Of a stretch of DNA of 34,162 bases, positions 661 through 27,016 are shown in pieces. The position numbers and the translations under genes were made by a program. The stretch's first letter is position 1; every line of letters begins with the position of its first letter. Source of the DNA: an uncultured Eubacteriales bacterium (GTDB taxonomy: Bacteria; Bacillota; Clostridia; Oscillospirales; Oscillospiraceae); the NCBI GenBank assembly GCA_949289455.1, contig CASEOA010000012.1:1-34162 (forward strand). The letters are read 5' to 3'. The notes beneath the pieces are model-generated. The model made no database searches and was not told the DNA's origin. It saw only the letters and a program-made list of their open reading frames with translations.

Positions 661-2049
661 TTAGCTTGCTTTCTCATCTTTCTTATCCTTCAGGATGATG
701 TTCAGAATAATGTTCAGACCGATACCAAAAATCACCGCCAGAAACACGTTGGAAGTGCACACCATGTTCAGGAAGGGCGGCAGAGAACTGGCCCACTCCG
801 CATAGGTAGAGCTGCAGTGATATGGGAGCATAACCGCCACAGAAAGCGTGGTTCCAGCAATGATCGTGTTCCTCAGTGTTCTGGGGGAGGACACGATTGT
901 GTCAATCCCGGAGAACATGATGGAAGCCGCTGTAATCAGGAAAACCGCGCCGATGATCGGCTTGGGGATTCCCGCCAGTACATACGCCATCTTGGGGCAC
1001 AGACCGTACAGCAAAAACAGGATTCCCGCAACCTGTGTCACACGTCGGGAGGCCACGCCAGTGGCAGCCACAATGCCGATATTCTGGGTATAGGAGGTGC
1101 AGGGCAGGGCGCCGAAGAAGGCGGTGATCACACAGCCCAGGCCCTCGGCCATAATACCCCGGTCGATATGCTTGACCCGATAGACCTCTTTACAGGCGGA
1201 GCAGGTGGCACCATAGTCGCCGACTGACTCAAAGATCGAGCCGATGTACCCGGAGAAGCCGCCGAGGATTGCGGCTCCGACAAACGCGACCAGCTGGCCG
1301 GACTCCCCGGACGGATTTGGCATATCCCGGAAGGGAAACAGCTGAGGCAGGGCAAACCAGGGTGCCTCCTGAACCGCTTTCCAGTCGAAGAGCCCCAAAG
1401 CAGACGCGCCGACAACCCCAACGAGAACCACACTGATGAGGATAAAGCCCTGAGAGACGATGCCTCTCCCCAAGAATTTCAGCAGCAACGCCAGAATAAA
1501 GGCGATGACGGCCAGAATCATATAGACCGGTTCTGTGTTGGAAAAGGTCCACTGCACGGCAATCCTGGCGGCCACAAACCCGATAGAGGTGACCACCGAA
1601 CCCAATACCACCGGAGGCAGAAACTTCCGGATTTTGCTGATCATACGGGTCGCGCCCAGCAGGAATTCCAGGAAGCCGCCCACCAGGATGGAGCCCCAGG
1701 TGGCCGGAAGACCGTACACACCGGCAATGCTCCCCATGGAGGACATCAGCGAGGACGACGTGCCCTGTACAATGGGGAGCCGGTTTCCAATGGTGGTCTG
1801 CAGGAAGGTGCAGATACCCATGCAGAAAAAGCAGGCACTCAGCATTGTGGCCGTAAAGCTGGCGGACTGGATACCGGCAAGGGATGCAAAACCGCTGACC
1901 CACATAAACGGCGTGAAATCCACCAGTGTGATCTGCAGCGCAAAATACCAGCTCTTCCACCAGGGTTTTGGAACATCCTCAATCCCGATGGTCACTTCAA
2001 TGTTGGATTCCGGCTGTTCATCAAAAATGGGCTGTTCTGGTTGATACAT
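661..2049 (-). CDS. NCS2-family nucleobase:cation symporter (xanthine/urate type signature)
   Basis: This is a polytopic membrane transporter of the nucleobase-ascorbate (NCS2) family, expected to have 14 membrane segments and to import a purine or pyrimidine base with H+ or Na+. The family signature is intact: QNIGIVAATG, with the Gln-Asn pair typical of xanthine/urate carriers, and FESVGD with the conserved Glu in the preceding helix. The start is placed at the ATG at 2049 (MYQPEQP) because GGGAGG lies 7 bases upstream; a frame from 2070 would leave that site inside the gene. Length 462 aa is normal. It is the last gene of the minus-strand cluster, downstream of the amidase. The substrate cannot be read from sequence; an oxidised pyrimidine is my inference from context. 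Confidence 0.9.
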   Translation of the reverse strand: MYQPEQPIFDEQPESNIEVTIGIEDVPKPWWKSWYFALQITLVDFTPFMWVSGFASLAGIQSASFTATMLSACFFCMGICTFLQTTIGNRLPIVQGTSSSLMSSMGSIAGVYGLPATWGSILVGGFLEFLLGATRMISKIRKFLPPVVLGSVVTSIGFVAARIAVQWTFSNTEPVYMILAVIAFILALLLKFLGRGIVSQGFILISVVLVGVVGASALGLFDWKAVQEAPWFALPQLFPFRDMPNPSGESGQLVAFVGAAILGGFSGYIGSIFESVGDYGATCSACKEVYRVKHIDRGIMAEGLGCVITAFFGALPCTSYTQNIGIVAATGVASRRVTQVAGILFLLYGLCPKMAYVLAGIPKPIIGAVFLITAASIMFSGIDTIVSSPRTLRNTIIAGTTLSVAVMLPYHCSSTYAEWASSLPPFLNMVCTSNVFLAVIFGIGLNIILNIILKDKKDEKAS

Positions 2050-2112
2050 GTTCTTTCCTCCCATCTGCATACCGCAGGCAGGGAGCGGCGGAGGCTCACC
2101 AAAGGCGGGAAA

Positions 2113-3591
2113 TCAGGGAAGCTCCGGTGCCGACTGCGGCGGACGGCGGAGCCGAGATACCTGCTCGAAGGAATAGGCGATGGCAATCAGGACGGGCTCG
2201 CTGAAGGGCCGGCCGATGATCTCCATGCCCACCGGTACGCCGATGGGGGCAGTTCCGCCGGGGGCAAACCCGGCGGGCACCACAACAGAGGGAAACCCGG
2301 TCACTGAGCAGAGTACGCCATTGCGCTGCTGCTGGGATTCGCCAATTTTACACACCAGCTGCTGCTGGTGGGGATACACGATGGCATCCAGCCGCAACTC
2401 TGCCATGAGACCCATCACCTGGTCCCGCACCCTGGCCTGGAGCAGCCGCTTCTGGTTGTATTCCGGTGTGTCGACCTCCTTCTCCTCTGCCTCCAGCAAG
2501 TGCTGCCGGAGGGCCGGGTGATACTTGCCGCTGGCCACCACCTCCTCCAGAGAGTAGACGGGGGCAGAATCCCCCTGCTGGGCCAGGTAGTGGTTCAGAT
2601 CGTGCTTGAAGTCGTCCAGGTGAACGCTGACATGCCCGGTCAGCCAGGCGGAGTCGATGGACTCCTGAATGGAGATCAGCTCCGCACCTCCCTCTTCAAA
2701 ATAGCGGAGGGCAGGACGGATAACCTGATTGACCGCCTCATTGGCAGGCTGGGTGCCGAAGAAGCTCTCCAGCACGCCGATGCGTTTTCCCCGCATCCCG
2801 TCCGGATCCAGGAAGGAGAGGTAGCTCTCCGGCTTACGACCCACACACCAGGCGGTCTTCGGATCCGCATGGTCATAGCCCGCGATCACATTCAGCGTCC
2901 GAACGGCGTCCTCCACCGTGCGGCAGATGGGGCCGGCGGTGTCCTGGGTCATACTGTAGGGCACGATGCCGTCCCGGCTGACCAGCCCCAGGGTGGGCCG
3001 GATGCCTACCAGGCTGTTGGCGGAGGAGGGGCTGCGGATGGAGTTGATGGTGTCGGTGCCGATGCCAATGAGGCCCATATTGGCGGCAATGGCTGCCCCG
3101 GTGCCTCCAGAGGAACCGCCTGGCGTCCGGGTCAGGTCGTAGGGATTTCGGGTCTGCCCCAGGATGGAGCTGATTGTCTCCCCCCAGATGGCGAACTCAT
3201 GCAGATTGGTCTTGGCCAGGATCAGGGCTCCGGCCTGGCGCAGACGTTTGGTGAGGAAGGCGTCTTCCCGGGGGACAAAGCCCTCTAGGGCGCGGGAGCC
3301 AGCTGTGGTGGGCATATCGCAGGTGCCCACGTTGTCCTTCAGCAGGACGGGGACGCCGTGCAGGGGGCCGGAGAGGGCCCCCGTCTCCCGGAGCACCCGA
3401 TCCAGCCGATCCGCCTCCTCCAGCGCCCGGGGGTTGACGGCGATGATGGCGTTAAGAGCGGGCCCCTGCTGATCATAGGCTTCCATGCGCGCCAGATAGG
3501 CCTCGGTCAGTTCCCGGCAGGTCAGCGTTCCCTCCAGCATTTCCTGCTGAACCTGGCGAATGGTACATTCCATGATGGGAAATGCGGTCAT
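2113..3591 (-). CDS. Amidase-signature family amidohydrolase
   Basis: A 492-aa enzyme of the amidase-signature family, which hydrolyses amides with a Ser-cisSer-Lys triad. Visible are Lys85 (in VLLKDNV), the GGSSGG loop at 158-163 holding the cis-Ser, and the nucleophile region GTDTINSIRSP with Ser184. The usual GTDTGGSIR reads TINSIR here, a variant that may change the substrate pocket. The ATG at 3591 (MTAFPIMECT) is preferred, with GGGAG 9 bases upstream inside the end of the carbamate kinase gene; a TTG at 3600 has no spacing. It follows carbamate kinase with only 5 bases between coding parts, so both are surely one transcript. In context a small amide such as malonamate or oxamate is an attractive substrate, but that is inference. 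Confidence 0.88.
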   Translation of the reverse strand: MTAFPIMECTIRQVQQEMLEGTLTCRELTEAYLARMEAYDQQGPALNAIIAVNPRALEEADRLDRVLRETGALSGPLHGVPVLLKDNVGTCDMPTTAGSRALEGFVPREDAFLTKRLRQAGALILAKTNLHEFAIWGETISSILGQTRNPYDLTRTPGGSSGGTGAAIAANMGLIGIGTDTINSIRSPSSANSLVGIRPTLGLVSRDGIVPYSMTQDTAGPICRTVEDAVRTLNVIAGYDHADPKTAWCVGRKPESYLSFLDPDGMRGKRIGVLESFFGTQPANEAVNQVIRPALRYFEEGGAELISIQESIDSAWLTGHVSVHLDDFKHDLNHYLAQQGDSAPVYSLEEVVASGKYHPALRQHLLEAEEKEVDTPEYNQKRLLQARVRDQVMGLMAELRLDAIVYPHQQQLVCKIGESQQQRNGVLCSVTGFPSVVVPAGFAPGGTAPIGVPVGMEIIGRPFSEPVLIAIAYSFEQVSRLRRPPQSAPELP

Positions 3592-3596
3592 ATCAC

Positions 3597-4538
3597 TCAA
3601 CTCCCGATTCTGGTACCGGTCTTGCCCTGGATACCGTCCTTGGCCTTCTCCAGCAGGGTGATCAGGGCGCTGCGGCCCTGGCCGGACTCGGCGAACTGGA
3701 GGGCGGCCTCCACCTTGGGCAGCATGGAGCCTGGGGCGAAGTGCCCCTCGGCGATGTAGGTTCTGGCCTCATCCGGAGTCATGGAATCCAGCCACTTCTC
3801 CTGGGGTGTGCCGAAGTGGATGGCCACTCTCTCCACCGCTGTAAGGATGACCAGGAAGTCGGCGTCCAGCTCCTGGGCCAGACGGCAGGAGGCGAAGTCC
3901 TTGTCAATGATGGCCTCCACCCCCTCCAGGTCGCCCTTCTCTGTCCGAACCACCGGGATCCCACCGCCGCCGCAGGCGATCACAATCTGCCCCGCCTGCA
4001 CCAGGTCACGGATGGCGGGCAGCTCCACAATGGAGGCGGGCTGGGGGGAGGGCACCACCCGGCGCAGGCCCCGGCCGGCGTCCTCCGCGTAGGTGAAGCC
4101 CCGCTCCGCGATGAGGCGGTCGGCCTCCTCCCGACTCACATAGGTGCCGATGGGCTTGGTGGGGTTCTGGAAAGCCGGGTCAGCCTGATCCACAACCACA
4201 TGGGTGAGCACGGTGCTGACCTCCTTGGCGATCCCCCGCCGGGTCAGCTCGTCCCGGATGGCGATCTGCAGATCGTGGCCGATGTAGCCCTGGCTCATGG
4301 CGCAGCAGATGGACAGGGGGCAGAGGGTATACTTGTCCGGCTCCTGCTTGTGCAGGGCGGTCATGGCCTTCTGGATCATGCCCACCTGGGGGCCGTTGCC
4401 GTGGGCGACGATCACCTCGTGGCCCTCCGCCGCCAGATCCACGATGGCCTTGGCGGTGTTGCGCACCGCCTCCCGCTGCTCCTGATAGTTATTCCCCAGG
4501 GCGTTGCCGCCCAGGGCGATGACAATTCGTTTTCCCAT
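3597..4538 (-). CDS. arcC: Carbamate kinase (catabolic)
   Basis: Carbamate kinase of the amino-acid-kinase fold, 313 aa, full length. It makes ATP from carbamoyl phosphate and ADP, releasing NH3 and CO2. Family blocks are all present: VIALGGNAL at the start, VAHGNGPQVG, AMSQGYIGHD, RRVVPSPQP, ACGGGGIPV, EAIIDKDFAS, and GHFAPGSMLPKVEAA near the end. There is no arginine deiminase or ornithine carbamoyltransferase nearby, so carbamoyl phosphate should come from the FdrA/DUF1116/DUF2877 enzyme of the same operon, as proposed for E. coli AllK with AllFGH. A GC-rich hairpin lies in the 102-base gap upstream. The ATG at 4538 has AGGAGG about 7 bases upstream. Confidence 0.93.
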   Translation of the reverse strand: MGKRIVIALGGNALGNNYQEQREAVRNTAKAIVDLAAEGHEVIVAHGNGPQVGMIQKAMTALHKQEPDKYTLCPLSICCAMSQGYIGHDLQIAIRDELTRRGIAKEVSTVLTHVVVDQADPAFQNPTKPIGTYVSREEADRLIAERGFTYAEDAGRGLRRVVPSPQPASIVELPAIRDLVQAGQIVIACGGGGIPVVRTEKGDLEGVEAIIDKDFASCRLAQELDADFLVILTAVERVAIHFGTPQEKWLDSMTPDEARTYIAEGHFAPGSMLPKVEAALQFAESGQGRSALITLLEKAKDGIQGKTGTRIGS

Positions 4539-4640: not shown

Positions 4641-5849
4641 TCAATCTCTCAGGGTGACGTCCACGCCGTCCTTGATGACGTAGACCGGGGGACGGTGGTG
4701 CCAGATAGCGTGGTAGACGTCCTCCTCGTCCAGAACCACCAGGTCGGCGTTGCCGCCCACCTCCAGCTTGTGGCCCTGCATGCCCAGCACCTTGGCGGCG
4801 CTGGTGGTCACCATGTCGTAGAGCAGCTCCATGTCGGTAAAGGTGGTCATCCAGAGCAGGTGGCTGGCCAGGAAGGCGATCTGCAGCATGTTGCACTCAC
4901 CGAAGGGGTAGTAGGCGTCGGCTACGTCGTCCTGGCCCAGGGCCACGGGGACGCCGGCGGCCAGCAGATCCCGGACGCGGGCGTGGAGGGGGCCGGTGTG
5001 GGGGTCGGACACCAGGCCGACACCCGCCTGCTTCATGAGGGCCACCAGCTTGCGGAAGTAGTTTTCGTTGTAGAGTTCCATGGCGCGGCAGTGTTGGGCG
5101 GTCACCCGGCCCTGCCAGCCCATCTCAATGGACTTCTTGCACAGCATCTCCAGGGTGCGCTCACCGGGATCGCCCACATCGTCCAGCAGCATGGAAATGT
5201 TTTTGTCGAACTCCTTGGCGATGGCGCACATCTTGTCCACATGGGACTGCTCCAGCTCCTCGGTGTACTCCATCCAGGGGATGCCGCCGATCACGTCCAC
5301 CCCCATCTCCGCCGCCTGGCGCACCAGCTCCTCGGTGCCGGGCTCACGGATCACGCCGTCCTGGGGGAAGGCAACCACCTGCAGCTCCACCTTGCCCTTG
5401 AACTCCTCCCGGGCCTTCAGCAGGGCCTTCACACCCTCCAGCCGGGCCTTGGAGTCCACGTCGGCAAAGGCGCGGATGTGGGTGTTGCCATGCTTCAGCG
5501 CCATCCGGCACACCTTGCGGACGTTCTCGATAATCCACTTCTCGTCGTAGCAGGCCTTGAAGTCGGCGGCCCGCTCAATGGCGGTCATGGCGCCGCCCAT
5601 GCCGCCGGTGTGGTACTCGCCCAGGGCCTCCTGCCCGGCCATCTCCAGGGTGAACACCTTGTCCAGGTGCAGGTGGCCGTTGACAAAGGACTCGGTCACC
5701 AGGCAGCCCTTGGCGTCGATGGTCTGGGCCGCGTCGGTGGAGAGGTTCTTTCCGATGTCGGCGATCTTACCCGCCCGGATGCCGATGTCCACGGTCTCCT
5801 TGCCGGAGGCGCGGGTCTTGGCATTGGTAATCAGAATGTCATAGGTCAT
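4641..5849 (-). CDS. Cytosine-deaminase-like (CodA family) amidohydrolase lacking one metal-ligand histidine
   Basis: A 402-aa member of the CodA-type amidohydrolase family (cytosine, isocytosine, ammelide and creatinine deaminases belong here). Shared with E. coli CodA are the HLHLD metal motif (His59, His61), VAFPQDG (CodA Gln156 region), RVTAQH (His253, CodA His246) and GQDDVADAYYP (Asp307, CodA Asp313). The CodA segment holding the metal ligand His214 and the acid/base Glu217 aligns with ISMLLDD, so His214 is Leu221 and Glu217 is Asp224. The gene is otherwise intact and well placed in the operon. This suggests changed chemistry or substrate rather than decay. The ATG at 5849 has AAGGAGACGAG upstream. 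Plain cytosine deaminase is possible but doubtful. Confidence 0.82.
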   Translation of the reverse strand: MTYDILITNAKTRASGKETVDIGIRAGKIADIGKNLSTDAAQTIDAKGCLVTESFVNGHLHLDKVFTLEMAGQEALGEYHTGGMGGAMTAIERAADFKACYDEKWIIENVRKVCRMALKHGNTHIRAFADVDSKARLEGVKALLKAREEFKGKVELQVVAFPQDGVIREPGTEELVRQAAEMGVDVIGGIPWMEYTEELEQSHVDKMCAIAKEFDKNISMLLDDVGDPGERTLEMLCKKSIEMGWQGRVTAQHCRAMELYNENYFRKLVALMKQAGVGLVSDPHTGPLHARVRDLLAAGVPVALGQDDVADAYYPFGECNMLQIAFLASHLLWMTTFTDMELLYDMVTTSAAKVLGMQGHKLEVGGNADLVVLDEEDVYHAIWHHRPPVYVIKDGVDVTLRD

Positions 5850-5885: not shown

Positions 5886-7175
5886 TCAGTTGTCGGAGGA
5901 GGCTTTGCCGTCCTCCTCCAGCATCTCATCCCCGAATTTGGGCAGAACCAGGTTCAGCACCAAACCCACCACAGCGGCCAGGGCCACACCGCCGAAGCTG
6001 ATGGCCACCTCGCCGATGGTGAAGGACACGGCGGCTCCGCCGATACAGAGAATCAGGACGGCCGCAAAGATGATCTGGTTCCTGGAATTGCCGAAATTCA
6101 CCGGATGCAGGGTGCGCAGGCCCGTGCCCGCCACGAAGCCGAACAGAATGATGGAGATGCCGCCCACCACAGAGCCGGGCATGGTCTGGAGCAATGCGGA
6201 GACCTTGGGGCAGAAGCCCAGCAGGATGGCAAACACGGCGGCAATGCGCATCACCAGGGGATCCCATACCTTTGTAAGGGCAAGCACACCGGTGTTCTCT
6301 GAGTAGGTGGTCAGGGCGCAGCCGCCCACAGCGGCGGAGAGTGCGGTGGCAATGCCGTCGCCCAGCATGACCCGGTGGACGCCGGGATCCTTGTAGAAAT
6401 CCTTGCGCACCGTTTCACCGATGGCCGCCACATCGCCAAAGCACTCCACAATGGTGGCAATGCATACCGGCGTGACCAGGGCGATGGCGACGGGGGAGAA
6501 TTTGGGAGCCGCGAAGGACGGCAGGCCGATCCAAGCCGCCTCCTTCACCGCTGTCAGATCTACCTGCCCTGCGGCCAGAGAGACGAGATAGCCCACGATC
6601 ATGGCGATCAGCACGGGGATGACCTGCACAAAGCCCTTGAAGAACATAGTGACAATGATGACGGTCGCCATGCCCACGATGGCCAGTGCCCAGTTCTCCG
6701 ATGCCATGTCTATGGCTGTGGGTGCCAGCATCAGGCCAAGGCTTGTGATAATAGAGCCAGTGACCACTGGCGGGAACACGGCTCGCACCCGGTCAGCCCC
6801 CACGGCCATAACCAGAAGGGAGATCACAATATAAGCGATACCGACCAGGAAAACGCCGCCTCTGGCATAAGCCAGGCCGTCGGCGCCGCCGCCCATGACC
6901 TGGGCCGCCATGATGACGGGCGTGATGTAGGCAAAGGAAGATCCCAGGTAGACCGGTACCTTGCCCTTTGTGCAGAGATGGCAGATCAGGGTTCCGATGC
7001 CGCCCATCAGGAGCACTGTGGCCACATCCAGTCCGGTGGTCAGGGGGACCAGGACGGTGGAGCCGAACATGGTGAACAGGTGCTGCAGGCCCAGCAGGAG
7101 GCGCTTTGGTACGGGAAGGGTGGAAGCGTCTTCAATGGGGTCGTTCAGCCGGGGACCGGCTGGCTTGGTCGTCAT
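5886..7175 (-). CDS. NCS2-family permease, uracil-permease (UraA) type
   Basis: A 429-aa polytopic membrane carrier of the NCS2 family. The signature reads YSENTGVLALTKV, very close to the E. coli UraA block with its substrate-binding Glu290, and VECFGD supplies the other conserved Glu (UraA Glu241 region). This pair is typical of uracil carriers and separates it from the Gln-Asn type carrier at 661-2049. The ATG at 7175 is preferred, with AGGAG 11 bases upstream; a GTG at 7184 sits only 2 bases from it. The gene lies between the two deaminase-type amidohydrolases, which suggests that at least one substrate of the cluster is pyrimidine-like. The C-terminus ends in a short acidic cytoplasmic tail. 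Confidence 0.9.
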   Translation of the reverse strand: MTTKPAGPRLNDPIEDASTLPVPKRLLLGLQHLFTMFGSTVLVPLTTGLDVATVLLMGGIGTLICHLCTKGKVPVYLGSSFAYITPVIMAAQVMGGGADGLAYARGGVFLVGIAYIVISLLVMAVGADRVRAVFPPVVTGSIITSLGLMLAPTAIDMASENWALAIVGMATVIIVTMFFKGFVQVIPVLIAMIVGYLVSLAAGQVDLTAVKEAAWIGLPSFAAPKFSPVAIALVTPVCIATIVECFGDVAAIGETVRKDFYKDPGVHRVMLGDGIATALSAAVGGCALTTYSENTGVLALTKVWDPLVMRIAAVFAILLGFCPKVSALLQTMPGSVVGGISIILFGFVAGTGLRTLHPVNFGNSRNQIIFAAVLILCIGGAAVSFTIGEVAISFGGVALAAVVGLVLNLVLPKFGDEMLEEDGKASSDN

Positions 7176-7217
7176 AGGATACACGTCTCCTTTCTCTTTC
7201 TCCTCGTTCCGGGCCTG

Positions 7218-8624
7218 TCAGCAGAGATCCGCCTTCAGCCCCTCGATGCGTGCGGAGGCGCGGGTCAGCAGCTCGCGGCCCACCTGGGTGACGTACTGCC
7301 GCTTCTCCTCCTCATCAACCTTGGTCAGGTGTCCCTTATGCACCACCAGCTCACCGTTGACCACAACCTCCTCCACCATGCGGGCGTCGCCGCTGAGCAC
7401 AATGCAGTCCACCGGGTCGTTGCAGCCGCCGGCGTACTGGAGCTGGCTCCAGTTCATGAGGGTGAAGTCGGCGGCCATGCCGGGGGCCAGGTAGCCGATG
7501 TCGTCGCGGTTGAGCACCCTGGCTCCGCCGGCGGTGGCCAGATAGAGCACGTCCTCGGCGTTGGCGGAGCTGTCTCCCCAGCTCAGACGGTTGAGCAGGT
7601 AGGATACCCGGATCTCCTCCATCATGTTGGCCGAGTTGCTGCTGGCCGCACCGTCCACGCCGATGCCGAAGCGGGTGACGCCGGCCCGCAGGAAATCGGG
7701 CACCCGGCAGGAGCCGGAGCTGAGGTACATGTTGGAGATGGGGCAGGTGGAAATTCCGGTATTGGTCTTGGCCATCAGCTCCACCTCTTCGTCGTTCAGG
7801 TGGATGCAGTGGGCATAGTAGAACCGGTCGCCCAGCATGTCGTGGCGGCGGAACCACTCCACTGGCCGGCAGCCGAAGTGCTCGATGGTGTACTCCACCT
7901 CGTGCTGGCTCTCGGCCAGGTGGCCGTGTACCATGATGTCTAGCTTCTCCGCCAGATCTACCGTGGCCCGGACGATCTCCTCGGTCTCATACTGGGCGAT
8001 GCTGGGGCCGATGCCCACCTGGCACATGGAGAAGCGGGAGGGATCGTGGTATTTCTTGACCAGACGCTCGGCGTCGGCCATGACGCCCTCGGTGGTGTCC
8101 ACCACCTCGGGGGGAACAATGTCGCTGGTCACTGAGTGGTAGGCCCGCACCGGGTGGAAGCGGATACCCAGTTCCCGGGCGGCCTCAATCTCCGCGTCCA
8201 CCAGGCCGGTTACCCCCACGGGGTGGGGATACCACAGGTCGTTGGAGGTGGTCACGCCGGTTTTCAGGCCGTCGCCAAGACTGGCATAGATACCGGCCCG
8301 CGCCACATCAGTGTTGAGATCCTTGTAAATCTCGTACATGGTGGTGAGCCACGGCTCCAGCCGCAGACCCTGGGTAGCCTTGATGTTGCGGATCAGCGTC
8401 TGCCAGGTGTGGTGGTGGGTATTGACAAAGCCGGGGAGAATCACGCGCCCGCTGGCATCCACCACTTCGTCGATGTCTACCGTGCCGGCCAGGCTCTTTT
8501 CCAGATCCGTGCCGACGGCCTTGATCTGATTCCCCTCGATGAGCAGGTCACCGTGGCGATAGCGGGTACGCGCCTCGTCCATGGTGATGATCCAATCTGC
8601 GTTCTTATACAAAGTGCGTTTCAT
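7218..8624 (-). CDS. 8-oxoguanine deaminase / triazine-hydrolase (ATZ/TRZ) type amidohydrolase
   Basis: A 468-aa metal-dependent hydrolase of the cog0402 amidohydrolase group (8-oxoguanine deaminase, guanine deaminase, TrzA/AtzB, SsnA). All metal and catalytic residues are visible: NTHHH (His70, His72), HGHLAES (His235, Glu238), AHCIHL (His272) and GVDGAASSN (Asp324). The CPISNMYLSSG block before the last motif is the type seen in 8-oxoguanine deaminases. The expected reaction is hydrolytic removal of an amino group from an aromatic N-heterocycle. It is encoded between two NCS2 permeases, 38 bases from the next one, so it probably acts on the imported base in the cytoplasm. Which base it deaminates cannot be read from the sequence. 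Confidence 0.88.
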   Translation of the reverse strand: MKRTLYKNADWIITMDEARTRYRHGDLLIEGNQIKAVGTDLEKSLAGTVDIDEVVDASGRVILPGFVNTHHHTWQTLIRNIKATQGLRLEPWLTTMYEIYKDLNTDVARAGIYASLGDGLKTGVTTSNDLWYPHPVGVTGLVDAEIEAARELGIRFHPVRAYHSVTSDIVPPEVVDTTEGVMADAERLVKKYHDPSRFSMCQVGIGPSIAQYETEEIVRATVDLAEKLDIMVHGHLAESQHEVEYTIEHFGCRPVEWFRRHDMLGDRFYYAHCIHLNDEEVELMAKTNTGISTCPISNMYLSSGSCRVPDFLRAGVTRFGIGVDGAASSNSANMMEEIRVSYLLNRLSWGDSSANAEDVLYLATAGGARVLNRDDIGYLAPGMAADFTLMNWSQLQYAGGCNDPVDCIVLSGDARMVEEVVVNGELVVHKGHLTKVDEEEKRQYVTQVGRELLTRASARIEGLKADLC

Positions 8625-12418: not shown

Positions 12419-12437
12419 TTCCAAACCTCCTGACGGA

Positions 12438-17969: not shown

Positions 17970-18109
17970 AGATTACCTCCCAAGCAGAGATCTCCGGCGG
18001 CCCTTCCTTGGATGCCCGCACCAGATCTACTTTTACATACAGGATTGTAGCACCAGCGGGGCGGAAAGTGTCCCTAAAAAGCCGGATCGGTTTTTGTGGA
18101 GATTTGTGA

Positions 18110-18805: not shown

Positions 18806-18946
18806 ATGAGTCCCATCACCTATTCCCTGTTCGCATACGGATTAACCGCAGTGATCTCGTATGTGGTGATTGCCATCATTGTGGCCATCAATGCGTTTAT
18901 GAGCCGTTCCCATAAGAAGGGTACCGGCGGCAGGAAGGAGGGCTGA
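18806..18946 (+). CDS. 46-aa single-span membrane protein, possible small subunit of the Na+ decarboxylase pump
   Basis: A 46-aa protein: about residues 8-31 form one hydrophobic membrane helix (AYGLTAVISYVVIAIIVAI), followed by a basic tail rich in Lys, Arg, Ser and Gly. GGAGG stands 12 bases before the ATG. It lies two bases ahead of madB, and the madB ribosome site is inside its last codons. Size, topology and position recall the OadG/gamma subunits of Na+-translocating decarboxylases, which hold the beta subunit and the soluble part together, but it is much shorter and lacks the His-rich end of OadG. I regard it as a real gene of uncertain function. Confidence 0.7.
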   Translation: MSPITYSLFAYGLTAVISYVVIAIIVAINAFMSRSHKKGTGGRKEG

Positions 18947-20186: not shown

Positions 20187-21857
20187 ATGCAAGAGACACA
20201 ACAGCGTCAATGGGACACCCTGCGGCAGGATACCGCCCAGCGTCTGGCTGCCGCAGAGGAAATCGTAGGCCCTGGCAAGCTTGTGCGCGCCAAGGACGTG
20301 GTAAAGCTGTTAGAGGCCGTCATCCGTCCCGGCGACAAGATCAACCTTGAGGGAAACAACCAGAAGCAGGCCGATTTTCTGGCCGAGCGGCTGTGCCGGG
20401 TAGATCCTAAGAAGGTACACGGACTGCATATGGTACAGTCCTCCATCGCCCTAGACAGCCACACCAAGCTCTTTGAGAAGGGCATTGCGGAGAAGATCGA
20501 CTTCTCCTACTCCGGCGCCCAGGCCGGAAAACTGGCCCAGGCCGTGCAGGAGGGCAAGGTAAAGCTGGGGGACATCCACACCTATCTGGAGCTCTTCGGC
20601 CGGTATTTCATCGATCTGATCCCCCGGGTGGCCCTGGTGGCTGCCTATCAGGCGGACAAGGACGGCAACCTCTACACTGGCTCCAACACGGAGGACACCC
20701 CCGTCATCGTGGAGGCCACCAAGTTCAAGCAGGGCATTGTGATCGCCCAGGTCAATGAGGTGGTTGACCATCTTCCCCGGGTGGACATCCCGGGGGACTG
20801 GGTGGACTTCGTGGTACAGTCGCCCCGCCCCTTCTACCTGGAGCCCCTGTTTACCCGGGATCCCGCGCTGATCACCGACGCCCAGATCCTCCGGGCCATG
20901 ATGGCCATTAAGGGCATCTACGCCGAGTACGGCGTCCAGACCGTCAACCACGGCATCGGCTTCGACACGGCGGCGATTGAGCTGCTGCTGCCCACCTACG
21001 GCGAGGAGCTGGGGCTGAAGGGGAAAATCTGCACCTCCTTCGCCCTCAATCCCCACCCCACCCTGATCCCCGCCATCGAGAGCGGCTGGGTCAAGAATAT
21101 CCACTGCTTCGGCGGTGAGCTGGGCATGGAGGAGTATGTGAAGGCCCGGCCCGACGTGTTCTTCGTGGGCCCGGACGGCAGCCCCCGTTCCAACCGCACC
21201 TACGCCCAGATCGCCGGCCACTACGCCGTGGATCTGTTCATCGGCGGCACCCTGCAGATCGACGAGGACGGCAACAGCTCCACCGCCACCGCCAGCCGTA
21301 TCGCCGGCTTCGGCGGGGCGCCCAACATGGGCTGTGACCCCCATGGCCGCCGGCACGCCAGCGGGGCGTGGCTCAAGTGCGGCGCGGAGTCCGGCATGGC
21401 GGCGGCCACCCTGGGCGGCATGCCCCGGGGCAAGCGCCTGGTGGTGCAGCTCCAGGAGACCTTCCGGGAGAAGATGGCCCCCGGCTTTGTGGAGCGGCTG
21501 GACGCCTGGGAGCTGAAGGAGAAGGCCGGTCTGGCCCTTCCCCCGGTGATGATCTACGGCGACGATCTGACCCACATCGTCACAGAGGAGGGCATCGCCT
21601 ATCTGCACAAGTGCCGCAGCCTGGAGGAGCGCCGGGCGGCCATCCGGGCGGTGGCCGGCTATACCAAGGTTGGCCTCAAGGCCGATCCCGAGGAGACCCG
21701 GGCCCTGCGGGCCGACGGGATCGTCAAAACCCCGGAGGATTTGGGCATCGACCCGGCCAGGGCCAACCGGAGCCTGCTGGCGGCAAAGAACGTCAGGGAT
21801 CTGGTCAAGTGGTCCGGCGGGCTGTATCAGCCCCCGGGTAAATTCAAAAATTGGTAA
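20187..21857 (+). CDS. madA: Malonate decarboxylase alpha subunit (acetyl-ACP:malonate ACP transferase)
   Basis: A 556-aa homologue of MdcA/MadA, the CoA-transferase-like subunit that swaps the acetyl group on the acyl-carrier protein for malonate, giving malonyl-ACP and free acetate. Characteristic blocks are WDTLRQD at the start, VIRPGDKINLEGNNQKQADF, HTYLELFGRYFIDL, TGSNTEDTP, IVIAQVNEVVDHLPRVDIPG, ASRIAGFGGAPNMGCDPHGR and DLVKWSGGLYQPP at the end, all in the usual order and at full length. AGAGGAG precedes the ATG at 20187. It is a cytoplasmic part of the complex and shows no sign of damage. Confidence 0.95.
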   Translation: MQETQQRQWDTLRQDTAQRLAAAEEIVGPGKLVRAKDVVKLLEAVIRPGDKINLEGNNQKQADFLAERLCRVDPKKVHGLHMVQSSIALDSHTKLFEKGIAEKIDFSYSGAQAGKLAQAVQEGKVKLGDIHTYLELFGRYFIDLIPRVALVAAYQADKDGNLYTGSNTEDTPVIVEATKFKQGIVIAQVNEVVDHLPRVDIPGDWVDFVVQSPRPFYLEPLFTRDPALITDAQILRAMMAIKGIYAEYGVQTVNHGIGFDTAAIELLLPTYGEELGLKGKICTSFALNPHPTLIPAIESGWVKNIHCFGGELGMEEYVKARPDVFFVGPDGSPRSNRTYAQIAGHYAVDLFIGGTLQIDEDGNSSTATASRIAGFGGAPNMGCDPHGRRHASGAWLKCGAESGMAAATLGGMPRGKRLVVQLQETFREKMAPGFVERLDAWELKEKAGLALPPVMIYGDDLTHIVTEEGIAYLHKCRSLEERRAAIRAVAGYTKVGLKADPEETRALRADGIVKTPEDLGIDPARANRSLLAAKNVRDLVKWSGGLYQPPGKFKNW

Positions 21858-21872: not shown

Positions 21873-22199
21873 ATGGCATTACAGCATTTGGAATTCTCCT
21901 ATGAAGGAACGCCGGGTGCCACTATCCCGATGGAGTGGTTCCACAGCGGCGTGGTGGGCTCCGGCGACATGGAAGTGCTCCTGACCCGAAGGGAGCAGCA
22001 GGGCAAAGTCACCGTCAAGGTCTGCACCCCGGTGCGCGGCTTTGACCAGGTGTGGGACAAGGTGCTGGCCCGTTTTGTCCAGGAGAGCGGCTGCGGGGAT
22101 CTGGAACTGGAGATCAACGACAACAACGCCACTCCGTTTATCGTCAGCCTCCGCCTGAAGCAGGCCCTGCAGGAGGCCAGAGGAGGCGAGCCAGCATGA
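21873..22199 (+). CDS. madE: Malonate decarboxylase acyl-carrier protein
   Basis: A 108-aa carrier protein homologous to MdcC/MadE. It carries the 2'-(5''-phosphoribosyl)-3'-dephospho-CoA thiol arm on a serine; the family context SGVVGSGDMEV puts this at Ser30. The C-terminal half shows the matching EINDNNATPFIVSLRLKQAL block. A strong AAGGAGG precedes the ATG at 21873, 15 bases after madA. Its stop overlaps the start of madC in an ATGA, so the two are translationally coupled. The acetyl form is regenerated by each turnover after first loading by MadH. Confidence 0.92.
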   Translation: MALQHLEFSYEGTPGATIPMEWFHSGVVGSGDMEVLLTRREQQGKVTVKVCTPVRGFDQVWDKVLARFVQESGCGDLELEINDNNATPFIVSLRLKQALQEARGGEPA

Positions 22200-23158
22200 G
22201 CTATGGAAATGGACAGAAGATGAGCTTTCTGGAGGCCAATGCCAGACAACGGGCCAACTGGCTGGTGGACGAGGGGAGCTTTACAGAGCTTCTTGGCCCC
22301 CAGGATCGCATGACCAGCCCTCACCTCCCTGCCCTGGGCGAGGCGGTGAGCTTCGACGACGGCGTGGTCACCGGTGTGGGACGCATCGGAACCCGTCCGG
22401 TCTTTGTAATCTCCCAGGAGGGACGCTTCATCGGCGGCGCGGTCGGTGAAGTTCACGGAGCCAAAATGGTTGGCATTTTCCGCCTGGCCCTGGATGCCTA
22501 CAAGGCCGCTGCAGAAAAGCACCCGGACGATCTGGATGCATACCGCCCGGCGGTGGTGATCTCCTTCGAGACCGGCGGCGTCCGCCTGCATGAGGCTAAT
22601 GCCGGCCTGCTGGCCCATGCGGAAGTGATGGATATGATCCAGGACACCAAGGGCAAACTGCCGGTGATCTCCCTCATCGGCAGCAAGGTAGGGTGCTTCG
22701 GCGGTATGGGCTTTGTAGCTGCCGCTACAGACGCCATCATCATGAGCCCCCTGGGACGTCTGGGCTTGACCGGCCCGGAGGTGATCGAGCAGGAGATGGG
22801 CAAGGAGGAATTTGACGCCTCTGATAAGTCCCTGGTCTCCCGCACCACCGGTGGCAAGCACAAATACATCATGCAGGACTGCAATATTTTGGTAGAGGAC
22901 ACGATAATGGGTTTTCGGCGGGCCCTGTGTGACTTGCTGGCCCAGCCTTATGAAAAGGTGTGCGCCTGCCGCCGCATTGGCTCCTATCAGCTGGTAAAGG
23001 AGCAGATGGATCTGGTGGCCCTGGCCGTGGAGCTGAACCCCGGCGATGCCAAAGACGTGTGGCGCTACTACGGAAACGAGCATCCGGAGCAGCTGCCCGA
23101 ACTGGAGACAGCGGAGTTCCTGCGCGTGGTACACCGCCGCCCCAAGGAGGTACGTTGA
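22196..23158 (+). CDS. madC: Malonate decarboxylase carboxyltransferase beta-type subunit
   Basis: A 320-aa subunit of the crotonase/carboxyltransferase fold, homologous to MdcD/MadC. With MadD it moves the carboxyl group of malonyl-ACP to biotin on MadF, leaving acetyl-ACP. Marks include FLEANARQRANWLVD at the start, FVISQEGRFIGGAVGEVHGAK, the oxyanion-hole region LIGSKVGCFGGMGFVAAATD and GLTGPEVIEQEMG. Start ATG at 22196 overlaps the madE stop by four bases, with AGGAGG upstream. In biotin-free (MdcA-E only) enzymes the homologous pair decarboxylates directly; here the presence of MadB and MadF shows the biotin-dependent version. Confidence 0.93.
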   Translation: MSYGNGQKMSFLEANARQRANWLVDEGSFTELLGPQDRMTSPHLPALGEAVSFDDGVVTGVGRIGTRPVFVISQEGRFIGGAVGEVHGAKMVGIFRLALDAYKAAAEKHPDDLDAYRPAVVISFETGGVRLHEANAGLLAHAEVMDMIQDTKGKLPVISLIGSKVGCFGGMGFVAAATDAIIMSPLGRLGLTGPEVIEQEMGKEEFDASDKSLVSRTTGGKHKYIMQDCNILVEDTIMGFRRALCDLLAQPYEKVCACRRIGSYQLVKEQMDLVALAVELNPGDAKDVWRYYGNEHPEQLPELETAEFLRVVHRRPKEVR

Positions 23159-23159: not shown

Positions 23160-24035
23160 ATGGAATCAATGATCGGTCGCGGCCGGGATGCAATCTCCAT
23201 GATTGTGGATCCCGACAGTTTTGCGGAAAACCAAGTGGGCAACGTCCAGGTGCCGGAGGGCTACGGCCCCGGCGCCGTGGTGGGCACCGCCAGCCTCAAC
23301 GGCAGACCCGTCACCATCCTGGCCAATGACGCCCAGGCCGTCAACCCCCGTTTCCCAGTGGTCTATTTCGGCGTCATCGGTATGGAGGAAGCCTATAAGA
23401 TGGCCTCCGCCGTCTACGAATCCATTCTGGCAGACCGGGACAAACCCGTGGGAGAAAAGCGGCCCCTGCTGCTGATTGTGGACACCCCGGGCAACGGTCC
23501 CGGCAAGGTGGAGGAGATCTTCGGCATGAACAAGGCCACCGGCGCCTATCAGCTGGCCCTGGCGGAGGCGCGGAAGGCGGGCCATGCGGTGATCGCCATG
23601 GTCATCGGCCGGGCCATCAGCGGCGCGTTCCTGTGCCACGGCCTTCAGGCGGATCACATCCTGGCCTTGCCCAAGGAGTGCGGCACCATGATCCATGTGA
23701 TGCCCCTGACCAGCATCTCCCGCATCACCAAAATGGACATCGAGCGGCTGGAGGAGCTCTCCCAGGAGAGCCCGGTGTTCGCCGCCGGCGTGGATTTCTT
23801 CTACCGCCTGGGCGGCGTGGAGGAGATCGTCCCCGCCCCGGAGGGCATGCGGGACGCCCTGGCCCGGCATGTGGAGCTGGTGGAGGCCCTGAAGCGCGAG
23901 GGGCACTATGAGCAGACCGGCCCCTGGAGCCGGGGCGCTCTGGGCGCGGAGCGGGGCGGGCGGACAACCCGTCCGGAGGTGCTCCGCCGGATGGCGGAGG
24001 AGTTTGCCGCGGTATCCTCCTCCTATCTCGCCTGA
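23160..24035 (+). CDS. madD: Malonate decarboxylase carboxyltransferase gamma-type subunit
   Basis: A 291-aa partner of MadC, homologous to MdcE/MadD and to the C-terminal half of acyl-CoA carboxyltransferases. Diagnostic stretches are AVVGTASLNGRPVTILAND, VDTPGNGPGKVEEIFGMN, and AMVIGRAISGAFLCHGLQAD, where backbone amides form the second oxyanion hole. It starts one base after the madC stop, with AAGGAGG inside the end of madC. The last 30 residues are basic and disordered-looking, which is usual variation. The stop is one base before the next start, so madC, madD and madH are tightly coupled. Confidence 0.92.
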   Translation: MESMIGRGRDAISMIVDPDSFAENQVGNVQVPEGYGPGAVVGTASLNGRPVTILANDAQAVNPRFPVVYFGVIGMEEAYKMASAVYESILADRDKPVGEKRPLLLIVDTPGNGPGKVEEIFGMNKATGAYQLALAEARKAGHAVIAMVIGRAISGAFLCHGLQADHILALPKECGTMIHVMPLTSISRITKMDIERLEELSQESPVFAAGVDFFYRLGGVEEIVPAPEGMRDALARHVELVEALKREGHYEQTGPWSRGALGAERGGRTTRPEVLRRMAEEFAAVSSSYLA

Positions 24036-24036: not shown

Positions 24037-25110
24037 ATGGGTGCCGGAGCGGAGCTGCGCCGGGCCCTGCTGGAGTTCGGCACGGGCCCGCTCCTGGCCG
24101 AGATGCCCCGCCGCACCCTGGCGGACAAGGGCATCGCCGGCCCCACGGCGGCTCATGTGATCGAGGAACTCCACACCCCGCTGAACCTGGCCTATACGAC
24201 CTTTACCACAGGTACCACCGCATTCCAGACCCCAGTGGGCGTCACCTGGCAGGAGCTTCCTGACCGCGCGGCGGCAGGTGTCCGAGCCTTGGAGCGGTGC
24301 GGTGTCCCCCGGGGCGCGGAGCTGCTGGTGACCTACCCGCCGCTGGTCAATGTATTCAGCCGGCAGGCCCTGGAGGAGTATGGCTCGAAGGCCCGCTTCA
24401 TCCTGCGCCCCTCCCGGGATGCGCTGCTGGCCGAGCTGTGCAGCGGTGCCCGCTTTGTGGTGGGGGAATCCTCCTTCCTGCGGGCAGCTCTGCAGGACGC
24501 ACGTCGGCTGGGCCTGTCCCGTGAGCTGCCGGAGAACCTGGTGCTCATTGCCGCCGGCACCCCGCTGGATCCGGAGCTGGCTGATGAGGCCGCTAGGCTA
24601 CCCGGCGCGCGGGTTCACGATCTGTACGGCTGCCAGGAGTTTGGCTGGCTGGTATTGGACGGAGCCCCCCTGCGGTCAGATATCACCCTGTGCTGGGATC
24701 CGGAGGATGCGGACAGGCACCACCTGCTGGTGGGCGGACTCCCCACGGGAGACTGTTTCCGACTGGGGGCGCACCCACTGAACCCGGAGGGCGCCATCTG
24801 CACCAACACCAAGGTTCGTTCCTCCCTGGAGCTGGAGACCACCCTGCTGGCAGGGAATGTCTCCAGCCGGGAGACGGCGCTCCGCACAGCCCGCACCATC
24901 CTTCGCATCAAGTCCCGCATCGTCCGGGTATCCCCAGATTATATCTGTGGGGCGGAGCGGACGCGGCTGACGGTGGGGCCGCCCGGCGGCCCGCCCCTGC
25001 TGGAGCTGGAGGGCCCGGAGGCCACCCGCATGCTGGACACGCTGGCACAGGCCCAGCGGCAGTACCAGCGGCAGGCCAAGACCGATCCGGTCTGGAGGAA
25101 GAAATGCTGA
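24037..25110 (+). CDS. madH: Adenylate-forming acetate:holo-ACP ligase (MadH type)
   Basis: A 357-aa protein with two marks of adenylate-forming acyl ligases: a Thr/Gly-rich AMP-loop TTFTTGTTAFQ at about 53-63 and YGCQEFGW at 197-204, matching the usual YGxTE block. In Malonomonas rubra MadH loads acetate onto the free thiol of the carrier protein to make the active acetyl form. The position directly after madD is the same as I recall there. It starts at the ATG at 24037, one base after the madD stop, and has no good ribosome site, so it probably depends on translational coupling. It is shorter than common acyl-CoA synthetases and lacks their C-terminal lid domain, as far as can be seen. Confidence 0.75.
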   Translation: MGAGAELRRALLEFGTGPLLAEMPRRTLADKGIAGPTAAHVIEELHTPLNLAYTTFTTGTTAFQTPVGVTWQELPDRAAAGVRALERCGVPRGAELLVTYPPLVNVFSRQALEEYGSKARFILRPSRDALLAELCSGARFVVGESSFLRAALQDARRLGLSRELPENLVLIAAGTPLDPELADEAARLPGARVHDLYGCQEFGWLVLDGAPLRSDITLCWDPEDADRHHLLVGGLPTGDCFRLGAHPLNPEGAICTNTKVRSSLELETTLLAGNVSSRETALRTARTILRIKSRIVRVSPDYICGAERTRLTVGPPGGPPLLELEGPEATRMLDTLAQAQRQYQRQAKTDPVWRKKC

Positions 25111-25799
25111 CAGAAATTCCGCGCCGCCATACGCTGCTCCGCCTCTCCAGAGCCGGGGAGGAGTCCCTCTGGCTCCGCAGAGAGACCGTCTACCCCGATC
25201 CCGCCGCCTGGGAGGCGGTTTGGGAGCGATTCCGCGGCATCCCTGTGATCACCCGGCGGCGGGCCGCCCCCGGGGAACTGATTCCTGTGGGGGTATCTCT
25301 CCCCATCCGGCGGGACGGCGGGCGATGGCGCATGGCCTCACAGGTGCCTTTGGACGGGGTAACGCAGGCCATTTCCGCCGTACAGGCGGCGGAAATGTGC
25401 GCAGAAGGCTCTTTGCCCTTCAGCCGCCTGATGGCGCACTTGCTCCGTCAGGCACCCCGGTATGGGGCCGCGGCGGGCCTGTTCGGCTCCGCCGCCCTGG
25501 AGACGGTTACGGGTCTGCCCTACTGCCACGCCGGTTCCGATCTAGACGTACTGCTCCTGCCCCAAGAGGACGCAGATCTCCCGGCTCTGGGCGGTTTGCT
25601 GCGCCGGCTGGAGGAGAAATGGGGCCTGCGCATAGACGCGGAGGTGGCCCTGGGCAGTGAGCGGTATGGAAAGCTGGCGGAGCTGCTGTCCGGCTCTGGC
25701 ACCATCCTGGTCAAAGGCGGTTCAGCCCCTGTTTTGTGTTCCACCCGCGCTGTCCTGGCATCTCTGGGCAGCGGCGGTAAATCAATTTTGAAAAAGTGA
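25104..25799 (+). CDS. mdcG: Malonate decarboxylase holo-ACP synthase (phosphoribosyl-dephospho-CoA transferase, MdcG)
   Basis: A 231-aa MdcG-family nucleotidyltransferase. It transfers the 2'-(5''-phosphoribosyl)-3'-dephospho-CoA arm from its triphosphate precursor to the serine of MadE. The catalytic pattern is seen as GLFGSAALETVTGL followed by GSDLDVLL with the two metal-binding Asp, then a further acidic stretch RIDAEVAL. The N-terminal part with IPRRHTLLRL and IPVITRRR matches the family. The ATG at 25104 lies within madH, overlapping its end by 7 bases, with GGAGGAAG upstream. It corresponds to the gene called madK in M. rubra, by position. Confidence 0.88.
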   Translation: MLTEIPRRHTLLRLSRAGEESLWLRRETVYPDPAAWEAVWERFRGIPVITRRRAAPGELIPVGVSLPIRRDGGRWRMASQVPLDGVTQAISAVQAAEMCAEGSLPFSRLMAHLLRQAPRYGAAAGLFGSAALETVTGLPYCHAGSDLDVLLLPQEDADLPALGGLLRRLEEKWGLRIDAEVALGSERYGKLAELLSGSGTILVKGGSAPVLCSTRAVLASLGSGGKSILKK

Positions 25800-26076: not shown

Positions 26077-26095
26077 AGATAGGAGGTAGTTGGCC

Positions 26096-27016
26096 ATGAC
26101 TGCAAATGCGCAATCTGCGGTTCTGGAACAGGAGGCGGCCTTTGCGGCACAGCAGGCCACCCGTAGCCTGCTCTATGAGGTGAGTGTATCCCCCAAGCCG
26201 GGTCTGGTGGATCGCTTTGACAGCGGAGCCCATGCTGATATGGATTTTTTCACCTATTTGGACAGTTCGGTAGCCTTAACCGAATATTTCCGCTTGTCCT
26301 ATCTGGAAGGAGCCTCATCCTCCTGTCTTGCTCCGCCAGCGCTCTTTCCCCATCTGAGGCGGCTAGGTATCCAGGCAGAACAGCAGATGTATACCGCCAC
26401 CAGGGGCGTCAACACCCACAAAGGGATTATTTTTACCCTGGGGTTATTCTGCGGCGGGCTGGGCTGGCTTTCCGGGCGTGGTGAACCTGTGGATGAGGTT
26501 GGGCTGTTGCGTTTGTGCAGCCAGATTGTGACGCCGGAATTTGAACGAGAACTGGGAAAGATTCCTCTCACATCGGCCAGAAGCGGCGGCGAACGTTTTT
26601 ATGCTGCCACCGGCCATTCCGGTATTCGTGGCGAGGCGGCCGCTGGGTACCCCAGCATTGCTTACTGTGGACTTCCTGTCCTTCGGAGCGCTCTGCAACA
26701 AGGATATTCCATCAACGATGCCGGTATCATTGTCCTGCTGGAACTGTTGTGTTGCGTCCACGATTCCAATCTCTTTGTGCGCTGTGGGGAGAAGAAGCAG
26801 CATGAACTGGCTCAGGCGGCCAGAGAAATCCTAGATGCGGAGCAGCTGGATCTTGGGCGGGTAGCACGGCTGAACCAGCGGTGCGTCCGTGACTGGGCCA
26901 GTCCTGGAGGCTGCGCAGACCTGCTTGCTGCAACGCTTTTTTTGCATTTTTATTTTATGAAGCCTGAGAAAATTGGAGAGAACATTTCATCCGAGAAAGG
27001 TAGTTTGGAAAGTTGA
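26096..27016 (+). CDS. mdcB: Triphosphoribosyl-dephospho-CoA synthase (CitG/MdcB family)
   Basis: A 306-aa CitG/MdcB-family enzyme that joins ATP and dephospho-CoA to make the precursor of the carrier-protein arm, which MdcG then attaches. All family blocks are present: EVSVSPKPGLVDRFDSGAHADMD, GVNTHKGIIFTLG, SGIRGEAAAGYPS and the C-terminal SPGGCADLLAATLFL. The ATG at 26096 has AGGAGG 9 bases upstream. Base composition is visibly less GC-rich than the mad genes before it, and it lies behind a terminator, so it may have joined the cluster separately or need only low expression. It completes the set needed for a self-contained malonate decarboxylase. Confidence 0.93.
   Translation: MTANAQSAVLEQEAAFAAQQATRSLLYEVSVSPKPGLVDRFDSGAHADMDFFTYLDSSVALTEYFRLSYLEGASSSCLAPPALFPHLRRLGIQAEQQMYTATRGVNTHKGIIFTLGLFCGGLGWLSGRGEPVDEVGLLRLCSQIVTPEFERELGKIPLTSARSGGERFYAATGHSGIRGEAAAGYPSIAYCGLPVLRSALQQGYSINDAGIIVLLELLCCVHDSNLFVRCGEKKQHELAQAAREILDAEQLDLGRVARLNQRCVRDWASPGGCADLLAATLFLHFYFMKPEKIGENISSEKGSLES

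Follow-up and report, generated by a model that had tools for sequence, protein, structure and literature searches.

A gene island of an uncultured Eubacteriales bacterium that may encode anaerobic fermentation of barbiturate-level pyrimidines

Introduction

The aerobic oxidative pathway of pyrimidine breakdown, which employs uracil dehydrogenase, barbiturase and ureidomalonase, is not known to save energy on its way via barbiturate. In the s-triazine pathway, enzymes of the AtzB/AtzC type together yield cyanuric acid, of which barbiturate is the carbon analogue as it is the nitrogen analogue of barbiturate, and Malonomonas rubra has a biotin-dependent malonate decarboxylase whose genes stand in the order B-A-E-C-D-H-K-F. 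Here we analyse a gene island with likenesses to all three, found in a stretch of 34,162 nucleotides (nt), called the window throughout, which is contig 12 (CASEOA010000012.1, GenBank assembly GCA_949289455.1) of a 2.25 Mb genome, 84% complete, from an uncultured Eubacteriales bacterium. The genome is a very near relative of Flavonifractor sp. An10 (99% over AllG). The island holds three NCS2 nucleobase carriers, two amidohydrolases, a cyclase-family metallohydrolase, an AllFGH-type transcarbamylase, carbamate kinase and an amidase, next to a malonate decarboxylase (mad) gene set, and all of the parts named in an earlier model-made reading of the letters (the sequence-only reading) are present in the window.

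From the gene content we consider it on balance probable that the island encodes an anaerobic, redox-neutral route by which barbiturate-level pyrimidines are fermented. The NCS2 carriers would import the base, the cyclase-family metallohydrolase would open barbiturate to ureidomalonate, and AllFGH, to go by the oxalurate reaction of the Escherichia coli enzyme, would phosphorolyse ureidomalonate to malonamate and carbamoyl phosphate, from which carbamate kinase (by homology) would yield ATP, CO2 and NH3. The amidase would convert malonamate to malonate, and MadA, MadE, MadCD, MadF and MadB, again judged by homology, would convert malonate to acetate and CO2 with export of Na+. Overall, barbiturate + 3 H2O would give acetate + 2 CO2 + 2 NH3, with no net oxidation. 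In the window's group the two amidohydrolases occupy the place that a molybdenum hydroxylase (Mo-hydroxylase) takes beside the core elsewhere. We favour this route from barbiturate through ureidomalonate, malonamate and malonate to acetate because of the genomic context of the core, the alternative endings found with it, and the linkage of the two halves in genome G177, which belongs to another genus.

More widely, it is quite possible, if short of probable, that AllFGH and the cyclase are the core of an as yet undescribed anaerobic fermentation of pyrimidines, widespread among Clostridia and Spirochaetes, in which uracil (by a Mo-hydroxylase) or aminopyrimidines (by amidohydrolases) would be converted to barbiturate, then to ureidomalonate, and then to malonamate and carbamoyl phosphate; the C3 acid would pass to malonate decarboxylase, to a CoA-transferase and malonyl-CoA decarboxylase, to a thiolase-DUF35-GNAT set or to export, and a second module in G177 would serve thymine via methylmalonyl-CoA. 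If this is true, anaerobes live on pyrimidine rings and save energy twice, as ATP from carbamoyl phosphate and as a Na+ gradient from malonate; the many AllFG homologues at present annotated as oxamate carbamoyltransferase or acyl-CoA synthetase would gain a substrate, one group within the cyclase family would gain a function, and the importer-less malonate decarboxylase of gut bacteria would be accounted for.

The locus differs from each of the described systems. With the aerobic pathway it would share the intermediates barbiturate, ureidomalonate and malonate, but in place of a barbiturase, for which no match to PF09663 was found among the 20 window proteins scanned (other parts of the genome were not searched), it has the cyclase and AllFGH, and ATP would be conserved. 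Hydroxy-triazine aminohydrolases of the AtzB/AtzC kind are among the best solved relatives of both amidohydrolases; they are distant relatives only, however, and the ring opener, AllFGH and the malonate ending differ, as does the altered metal site of the CodA-like amidohydrolase. The mad genes follow the M. rubra order and include the MadB pump and a biotin carrier, whereas no MadM was found in the window genome (84% complete), the regulator is of HutP type, and the operon adjoins a pyrimidine set. The anaerobic allantoin pathway of E. coli also has AllF, AllG, AllH and carbamate kinase in one set and gains ATP by phosphorolysis of an acylurea (PMC11326118); in contrast to that pathway, no AllC, AllD or AllE lies by the core here (0/80 loci), a cyclase is added, and the acid proposed is C3 (malonyl) rather than C2 (oxalyl). 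In nitrifiers, too, allFGH-allK sets pair AllFGH with carbamate kinase and lack known upstream purine genes, but they lie beside triuret/biuret genes, and the accessible text of PMC12625717 tells of no cyclase-barbiturate or malonate link. An oxidative pyrimidine route is named in PMC12507026, and no earlier description of the route proposed here is among the literature matches listed, most subscription journals having been outside the search. The parts are of known kinds, and their combination and the proposed intermediate chemistry look new.

The AllFGH core and its cyclase

The three transcarbamylase subunits and their carbamate kinase partner are all present in the window, with 46% (AllG), 39% (AllF) and 30% (AllH) identity to the E. 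coli proteins and 40% identity of the kinase to E. coli AllK. Assays have shown E. coli AllFGH to be an oxalurate/oxamate transcarbamylase, which converts the acylurea oxalurate reversibly to oxamate and carbamoyl phosphate and is served by a carbamate kinase of its own (PMC11326118).

We surveyed the best 80 of 469 AllG relatives in the genome collection; AllG is in every locus by selection, and the set leans to window-like AllG because it was taken from the top of the 469. The hosts are mostly Clostridia and Spirochaetes, and AllF adjoins AllG in 78 of the 80 loci. Other neighbours were counted in those 40 loci for which 6 kb or more of sequence was available to either side of the AllG match. 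A cyclase lies beside the core in 39 of these, a uracil-type NCS2 carrier in 27 and the large subunit of a Mo-hydroxylase in 24. As for the endings, class III CoA-transferases occur in 19 loci, amidases or nitrilases in 17, and a set of thiolase, DUF35 and c10 proteins in 13. With the window proteins as queries, AllH was found in 14 of the 40 (17/80 overall; further AllH-like clusters seen by eye were left uncounted) and carbamate kinase in 10. Genomes G400 (locus L005) and G307, which have an identical match place and score, were counted once, and the p-values of the neighbour associations given below carry no correction for kinship.

Enzymes that mark the allantoin pathway are missing from this setting. 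E. coli AllC, AllD and AllE as queries matched in 0/80 loci at E 1e-8 (many flanks are short), as did the oxalyl-CoA decarboxylase of E. coli, and AllB gave weak matches in 2/80. In a tree of 96 AllG rows (quick method, SH-aLRT, without bootstrap; L170 not included), the main core AllG proteins form an 83-row group apart from E. coli YlbE (SH-aLRT 94, not starred); YlbE, L171, L174 and L130 are long branches, and L130, whose genome G035 has the cyclase, falls outside the group. Judged by the separate position of YlbE and by the missing AllC, AllD, AllE and oxalyl-CoA decarboxylase matches, the core unit is something other than the allantoin pathway of E. coli. Reading the core as an allantoin/oxalurate pathway was rejected on the 0/80 counts, which make oxalurate a less likely substrate.

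The cyclase belongs to the PF04199 family by model score and by a metal-type motif, and its nearest match by sequence is kynurenine formamidase (E 1e-9). Residues H52, H56, D58, H62, H222 and E224, which we take to be metal ligands, are invariant in 36/36 aligned cyclases. An AlphaFold2 model (mean pLDDT 82) has its best fold match in isatin hydrolase (E 8e-12, TM 0.61), an enzyme that opens a five-membered amide ring. The fold and the HxxxHxD motif are shared with isatin hydrolase and kynurenine formamidase, but identity to them is about 20%, and the core cyclase forms a separate group beside AllFG. Hydrolytic opening of barbiturate yields ureidomalonate, an acylurea one carbon longer than oxalurate, and we propose the cyclase as the probable ring-opener.

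Endings beside the core

Of the 17 loci with an amidase or nitrilase gene, 13 also have the CoA-transferase, against 6 of the 23 loci with neither (p 0.003), and none has the thiolase set (0/17, p 1e-4), which is likewise never found with the CoA-transferase (0/19, p 2e-5). Only L008, L010, L011 and L032 of the 40 loci have none of these three endings. An MmdA-type decarboxylase subunit lies near the core in 4/80 loci (L016, L018, L043 and L076), in L076 together with a biotin carrier, OadB and, by eye, an OadG-like open reading frame (ORF). Both the CoA-transferase and the MmdA-type subunit would suit a route by way of malonate or malonyl-CoA. We regard the endings as the best evidence for malonate as the product of the core.

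In the thiolase set at L012:5109-7444, three genes encode c10 (220 aa), a thiolase and a DUF35/ChsH2-type zinc ribbon protein. The c10 protein has no Pfam match, and its predicted model has a GNAT fold; GNAT-type malonyl-CoA decarboxylases exist. An AtoE-like transporter (c36, named by eye) adjoins carbamate kinase in L008, L010 and L011, which have no amidase and come from genomes without MadA. By analogy with E. coli, which excretes oxamate, this transporter perhaps exports malonamate.

The window amidase carries the Lys and Ser motifs of its family, and we propose that it may act as a malonamate amidohydrolase. Aerobic ureidomalonase is an amidase-family enzyme, into which family the window amidase fits, and the amidase might thus give urea and malonate from ureidomalonate as in the aerobic route, with another role for AllFGH. 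This is very unlikely in our view: AllF (78/80) and the cyclase (39/40) accompany AllG, amidase-type genes in only 17/40 loci, and the carbamate kinase and amidase genes of the window overlap by 4 nt.

Several features of the proteins weigh against the chemistry proposed here. The cyclase model is weakest at the metal motif (pLDDT 53-63 over residues 41-70); the nearest solved relative of the amidase is a peptide amidase (327 bits), with malonamidase E2 at 87 bits or less; and the CoA-transferase falls below every NCBIfam cut-off, scoring 375 bits with the succinate-glutarate model versus 369 with the oxalate one. The same CoA-transferase shares 42% identity with the acetyl-CoA:oxalate CoA-transferase of E. 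coli, YfdE, and 31% with Frc. This resemblance to an oxalate enzyme, which we count in favour of a malonate ending, fits a different scheme as well, in which a five-membered ring, parabanate, would be opened to oxalurate, AllFGH would yield oxamate and carbamoyl phosphate, and the amidase would yield oxalate. Isatin hydrolase, the closest cyclase fold, acts on a ring of that size. Oxalurate, moreover, is the assayed substrate of AllFGH (PMC11326118), a 1965 title cited in PMC3364942 tells of induction of the Streptococcus oxamate transcarbamylase by parabanic acid, and the nitrifier allFGH-allK sets are assigned to oxalurate use in PMC12625717. Yet no homologue of oxalyl-CoA decarboxylase, AllC, AllD or AllE was found in the 80 loci, core AllG separates from YlbE, and where decarboxylases were seen near the core they are malonate decarboxylases or MmdA-type enzymes. 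We judge the parabanate scheme distinctly unlikely and keep to the barbiturate route.

Linkage of the core to malonate decarboxylase

MadA, the acyl carrier protein, MadC, MadD, MadB and the biotin carrier are all present in the island, which bears out the biotin-dependent malonate decarboxylase named in the sequence-only reading (Table 1). MadB is the pump subunit, and MadF contains EAMKME. The NCBIfam names of TIGR03133 and TIGR03134 say biotin-independent. The MadH-like protein scores below the AMP-binding cut-off and has relatives (47-55%) at the equivalent position in other mad sets.

In the window and in genomes G022 and G307, all of one genus, the amidase and malonate decarboxylase genes adjoin the core. 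In G177, of another genus, the cyclase, amidase and mad genes lie within about 20 kb, with 5.9 kb from MadA to the cyclase; there, the mad genes (MdcG, MadH, D, C, E, A) are divergent from an MdcB homologue and a core run consisting of AllF, AllG, the cyclase (75%), the amidase, AllH and a three-subunit Mo-hydroxylase. The two halves are thus neighbours beyond the window; by the sequence-only reading's own standard, adjacency in the window alone would have refuted it. A survey of 400 genomes from this family gave 8 with the cyclase (identity of 70% or more), 8 with full-length MadA and 4 with both (p 4.5e-6 by genome, a value inflated by kinship); counted by genus, 5 of 106 have the cyclase, 5 have MadA and 2 have both (p 0.017). 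Full-length MadA here means the 8 genomes with E <1e-200; PF16957 matched 37 of the 400 genomes at E 0.001, 25 of them over its cut-off, and the remaining matches are short and 1e-9 or weaker. The malonate importer subunit MadM is missing from 4/4 genomes whose halves are linked and occurs in 3/3 unlinked genomes that have MadB and MadF in the mad set (G297, G401 and G402). Of the MadA genomes without the cyclase, a mad set was seen in G297 only; G119 has MadA without mad neighbours, and in G318 and G023 contig ends are close.

It might nevertheless be that the halves are separate, the ureide half yielding some other product, the mad genes serving malonate from elsewhere, and their adjacency being accidental. 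The operons are divergent, have their own regulator genes (PucR and HutP), and are separated by nitroreductase and HAD-type phosphatase genes, on both of which the sequence-only reading was silent. Several survey results also tell against a joint pathway. MadA occurs in 4/79 core genomes (4/49 and 0/30; the set of 30 had no control match, and the same model matched in the set of 49), leaving 75/79 without it, so that malonate decarboxylase can be no more than one of the optional endings. Within the available flanks MadA lies near the core in 1/80 loci, L005, which is the window's own kin, and linkage of core and mad genes was observed in just two genera. The mad genes of G401 and G402 are on a different contig from the cyclase, together with MadM and a MadL-like gene, and MadA of G417 (Clostridium magnum) is likewise on a different contig, with no MadB beside the mad set. 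G417, G318, G119 and G023, whose MadA genes have other surroundings, lack MadM as well, and with all 7 unlinked genomes in the comparison the contrast is weak (0/4 versus 3/7, p 0.24). G177 has no OAD_beta gene and no MadB, and its mad set no MadF, which makes Na+ pumping doubtful there, and the cyclase occurs in 1/4 genomes of its genus, G177 itself.

On the other side, the adjacency recurs in G177 with a different arrangement, and MadM is missing from all four genomes with linked halves. Moreover, among genomes with the window's CodA-like type, amidase comes with MadA in 5/5, versus MadA in 0/3 without amidase in the available flank (L008, L010 and L011), although L024, of the same type, has a nitrilase but no MadA, which brings the comparison to 5/6 versus 0/3 (table 5,1 / 0,3; p 0.048). 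We hold accidental adjacency to be unlikely. For the fermentation reading the outcome is mixed: the genomic predictions of the sequence-only reading held, including that of the neighbour survey, but the linkage is rare.

G177 also has a second, divergent module (C33, L145:2216-14608) with a three-subunit Mo-hydroxylase, AllG, a cyclase (44%), a nitrilase, AllF, a class III CoA-transferase, an MmdA-type carboxyltransferase and a biotin carrier; this could be a thymine/methylmalonyl version. AllG with a cyclase of 44-46% is also found in L169, L178 and L180 and groups in the tree with the AllG of this module. A PYC_OADA/HMGL-like protein (L129:6443-8020) adjoins the G177 island, and carboxyl transfer from malonate to pyruvate is conceivable.

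The source of barbiturate

The sequence-only reading named two deaminase-type amidohydrolases, and both genes are present. The best solved relatives of the CodA-like protein are AtzC entries, with cytosine deaminase close behind. In place of the E. coli CodA stretch 'DVHCDE', however, the window protein and its close relatives have 'SMLLDD', with Leu for what is presumably the metal His and Asp for the presumed catalytic Glu, and the NF005748 score of 284 bits is below the cut-off of 438. The deaminase label is insecure for this protein because of these replacements. The altered type is tied to the core, being kept in the window's kin and, as 'SMLIDD', in L024; in L136, L158 and L159 a second CodA-like gene, with the His intact, adjoins the altered one. 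The SsnA-like protein retains the motifs that we take to be metal ligands, and its best solved relative, 7ww2, is listed as 8-oxoguanine deaminase/hydroxydechloroatrazine ethylaminohydrolase; since it does not reach the cut-off of NF006055 (8-oxoguanine deaminase), it is a family-level relative only.

There is no Mo-hydroxylase in the window island. The host genome has three, which share 30-33% identity with the one that accompanies the core elsewhere, and no AllF, AllG or cyclase lies in the 17-19 kb around each of them. Uracil oxidation by these enzymes, although possible, was set aside on the low identity and the lack of core genes nearby. By analogy with the triazine aminohydrolases, barbiturate in the window's group may perhaps come from amino-substituted pyrimidines by deamination, and with that source the whole fermentation would be redox-neutral. 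For many other hosts, uracil-type carriers and a Mo-hydroxylase beside the core suggest that uracil would be oxidised to barbiturate. The source of barbiturate in the window is the weakest link in our proposal, given the altered CodA-like site and the three unlinked Mo-hydroxylases in the genome.

Layout of the island

The features of the island are collected in Table 1. Spacing is operon-like in the minus-strand pyrimidine/ureide set (gaps of -14 to 153 nt) and ranges from -7 to 75 nt in the mad genes from the 46-residue ORF to MdcB.

Table 1 Features of the island, with positions in the window
Feature	Position	Strand	Evidence and remarks
NCS2 nucleobase carrier 1	661..2070	-	PF00860 207 bits
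Amidase-signature amidase	2113..3600	-	PF01425 326 bits
Catabolic carbamate kinase	3597..4538	-	TIGR00746 374 bits, cut-off 358
Cytosine-deaminase/AtzC-like (CodA-like) amidohydrolase, altered metal site	4641..5849	-	PF07969 133 bits
NCS2 carrier 2, uracil-permease-like	5886..7184	-	PF00860 288 bits; NF007995 341, below cut-off 477
SsnA / 8-oxoguanine deaminase / AtzB-like amidohydrolase	7218..8624	-	NF006055 428 bits, below cut-off 532
NCS2 carrier 3, PbuX-like	8663..9985	-	PF00860 240 bits
PF04199 cyclase-family metallohydrolase	10139..10939	-	PF04199 123.5 bits, cut-off 23.1
AllG (DUF1116), transcarbamylase subunit	10994..12424	-	PF06545 317 bits, cut-off 27
AllF (FdrA), transcarbamylase subunit	12438..13994	-	NF004760 495.5 bits, cut-off 433
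AllH (DUF2877), transcarbamylase subunit	13981..14916	-	PF11392 82 bits, cut-off 25
PucR-type regulator	15015..16688	+	PF07905, PF13556; true start probably further down
Nitroreductase family protein	16760..17410	-	PF00881; true start nearer 17280 by eye
HAD-type phosphatase frame	17316..17972		named by eye
HutP-family protein (RNA-binding antiterminator family)	18175..18624	+	PF09021 117 bits
46-residue membrane-type ORF, OadG subunit place	18806..18946	+	no Pfam match
MadB, carboxybiotin decarboxylase Na+ pump subunit	18949..20154	+	PF03977 358 bits
MadA, acetyl-ACP:malonate transferase	20187..21857	+	PF16957 952 bits
MadE, acyl carrier protein	21873..22199	+	PF06857 80 bits
MadC, carboxyltransferase beta	22196..23158	+	TIGR03133 355 bits, cut-off 278
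MadD, carboxyltransferase gamma	23160..24035	+	TIGR03134 291 bits, cut-off 237
MadH-like acetate:ACP ligase	24037..25110	+	PF00501 20 bits, below cut-off 29.9; no NCBIfam match
MdcG (MadK), prosthetic-group transferase	25104..25799	+	PF10620, PF20866
MadF, biotin carrier, 69 aa	25811..26020	+	PF00364 64 bits; EAMKME
MdcB/CitG, triphosphoribosyl-dephospho-CoA synthase	26096..27016	+	PF01874 233 bits

The pucR gene is divergent from the minus-strand set, and a sigma-70-type promoter match before it (15001-15029, 12/12, 17-nt spacer) overlaps its first listed start. A nitroreductase-family gene adjoins the core not only in L005 but also in L006, L008, L010, L011 and L020 (42-69%).

In the region of the HutP-family gene (18175-18810), a 181-nt leader precedes the mad operon. 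Antitermination of a malonate operon by HutP would be unusual; a HutP-like gene (27%) also adjoins the mad set of G297 (locus L138). No terminators were found in 14900-19000, no RNA family reached its gathering score, and a special RNA fold before madB was not significant (z -1.2; 27/200 shuffles equally good). A gap of 2 nt separates the 46-residue ORF from madB, and the ORF holds the position of an OadG gamma subunit. Beyond the mad genes, the right end of the window (27429-33530) encodes a phosphoesterase, a Y-family polymerase-like protein (IMS), and DUF1016_N and KilA-N proteins, and has a mobile or phage-derived look.

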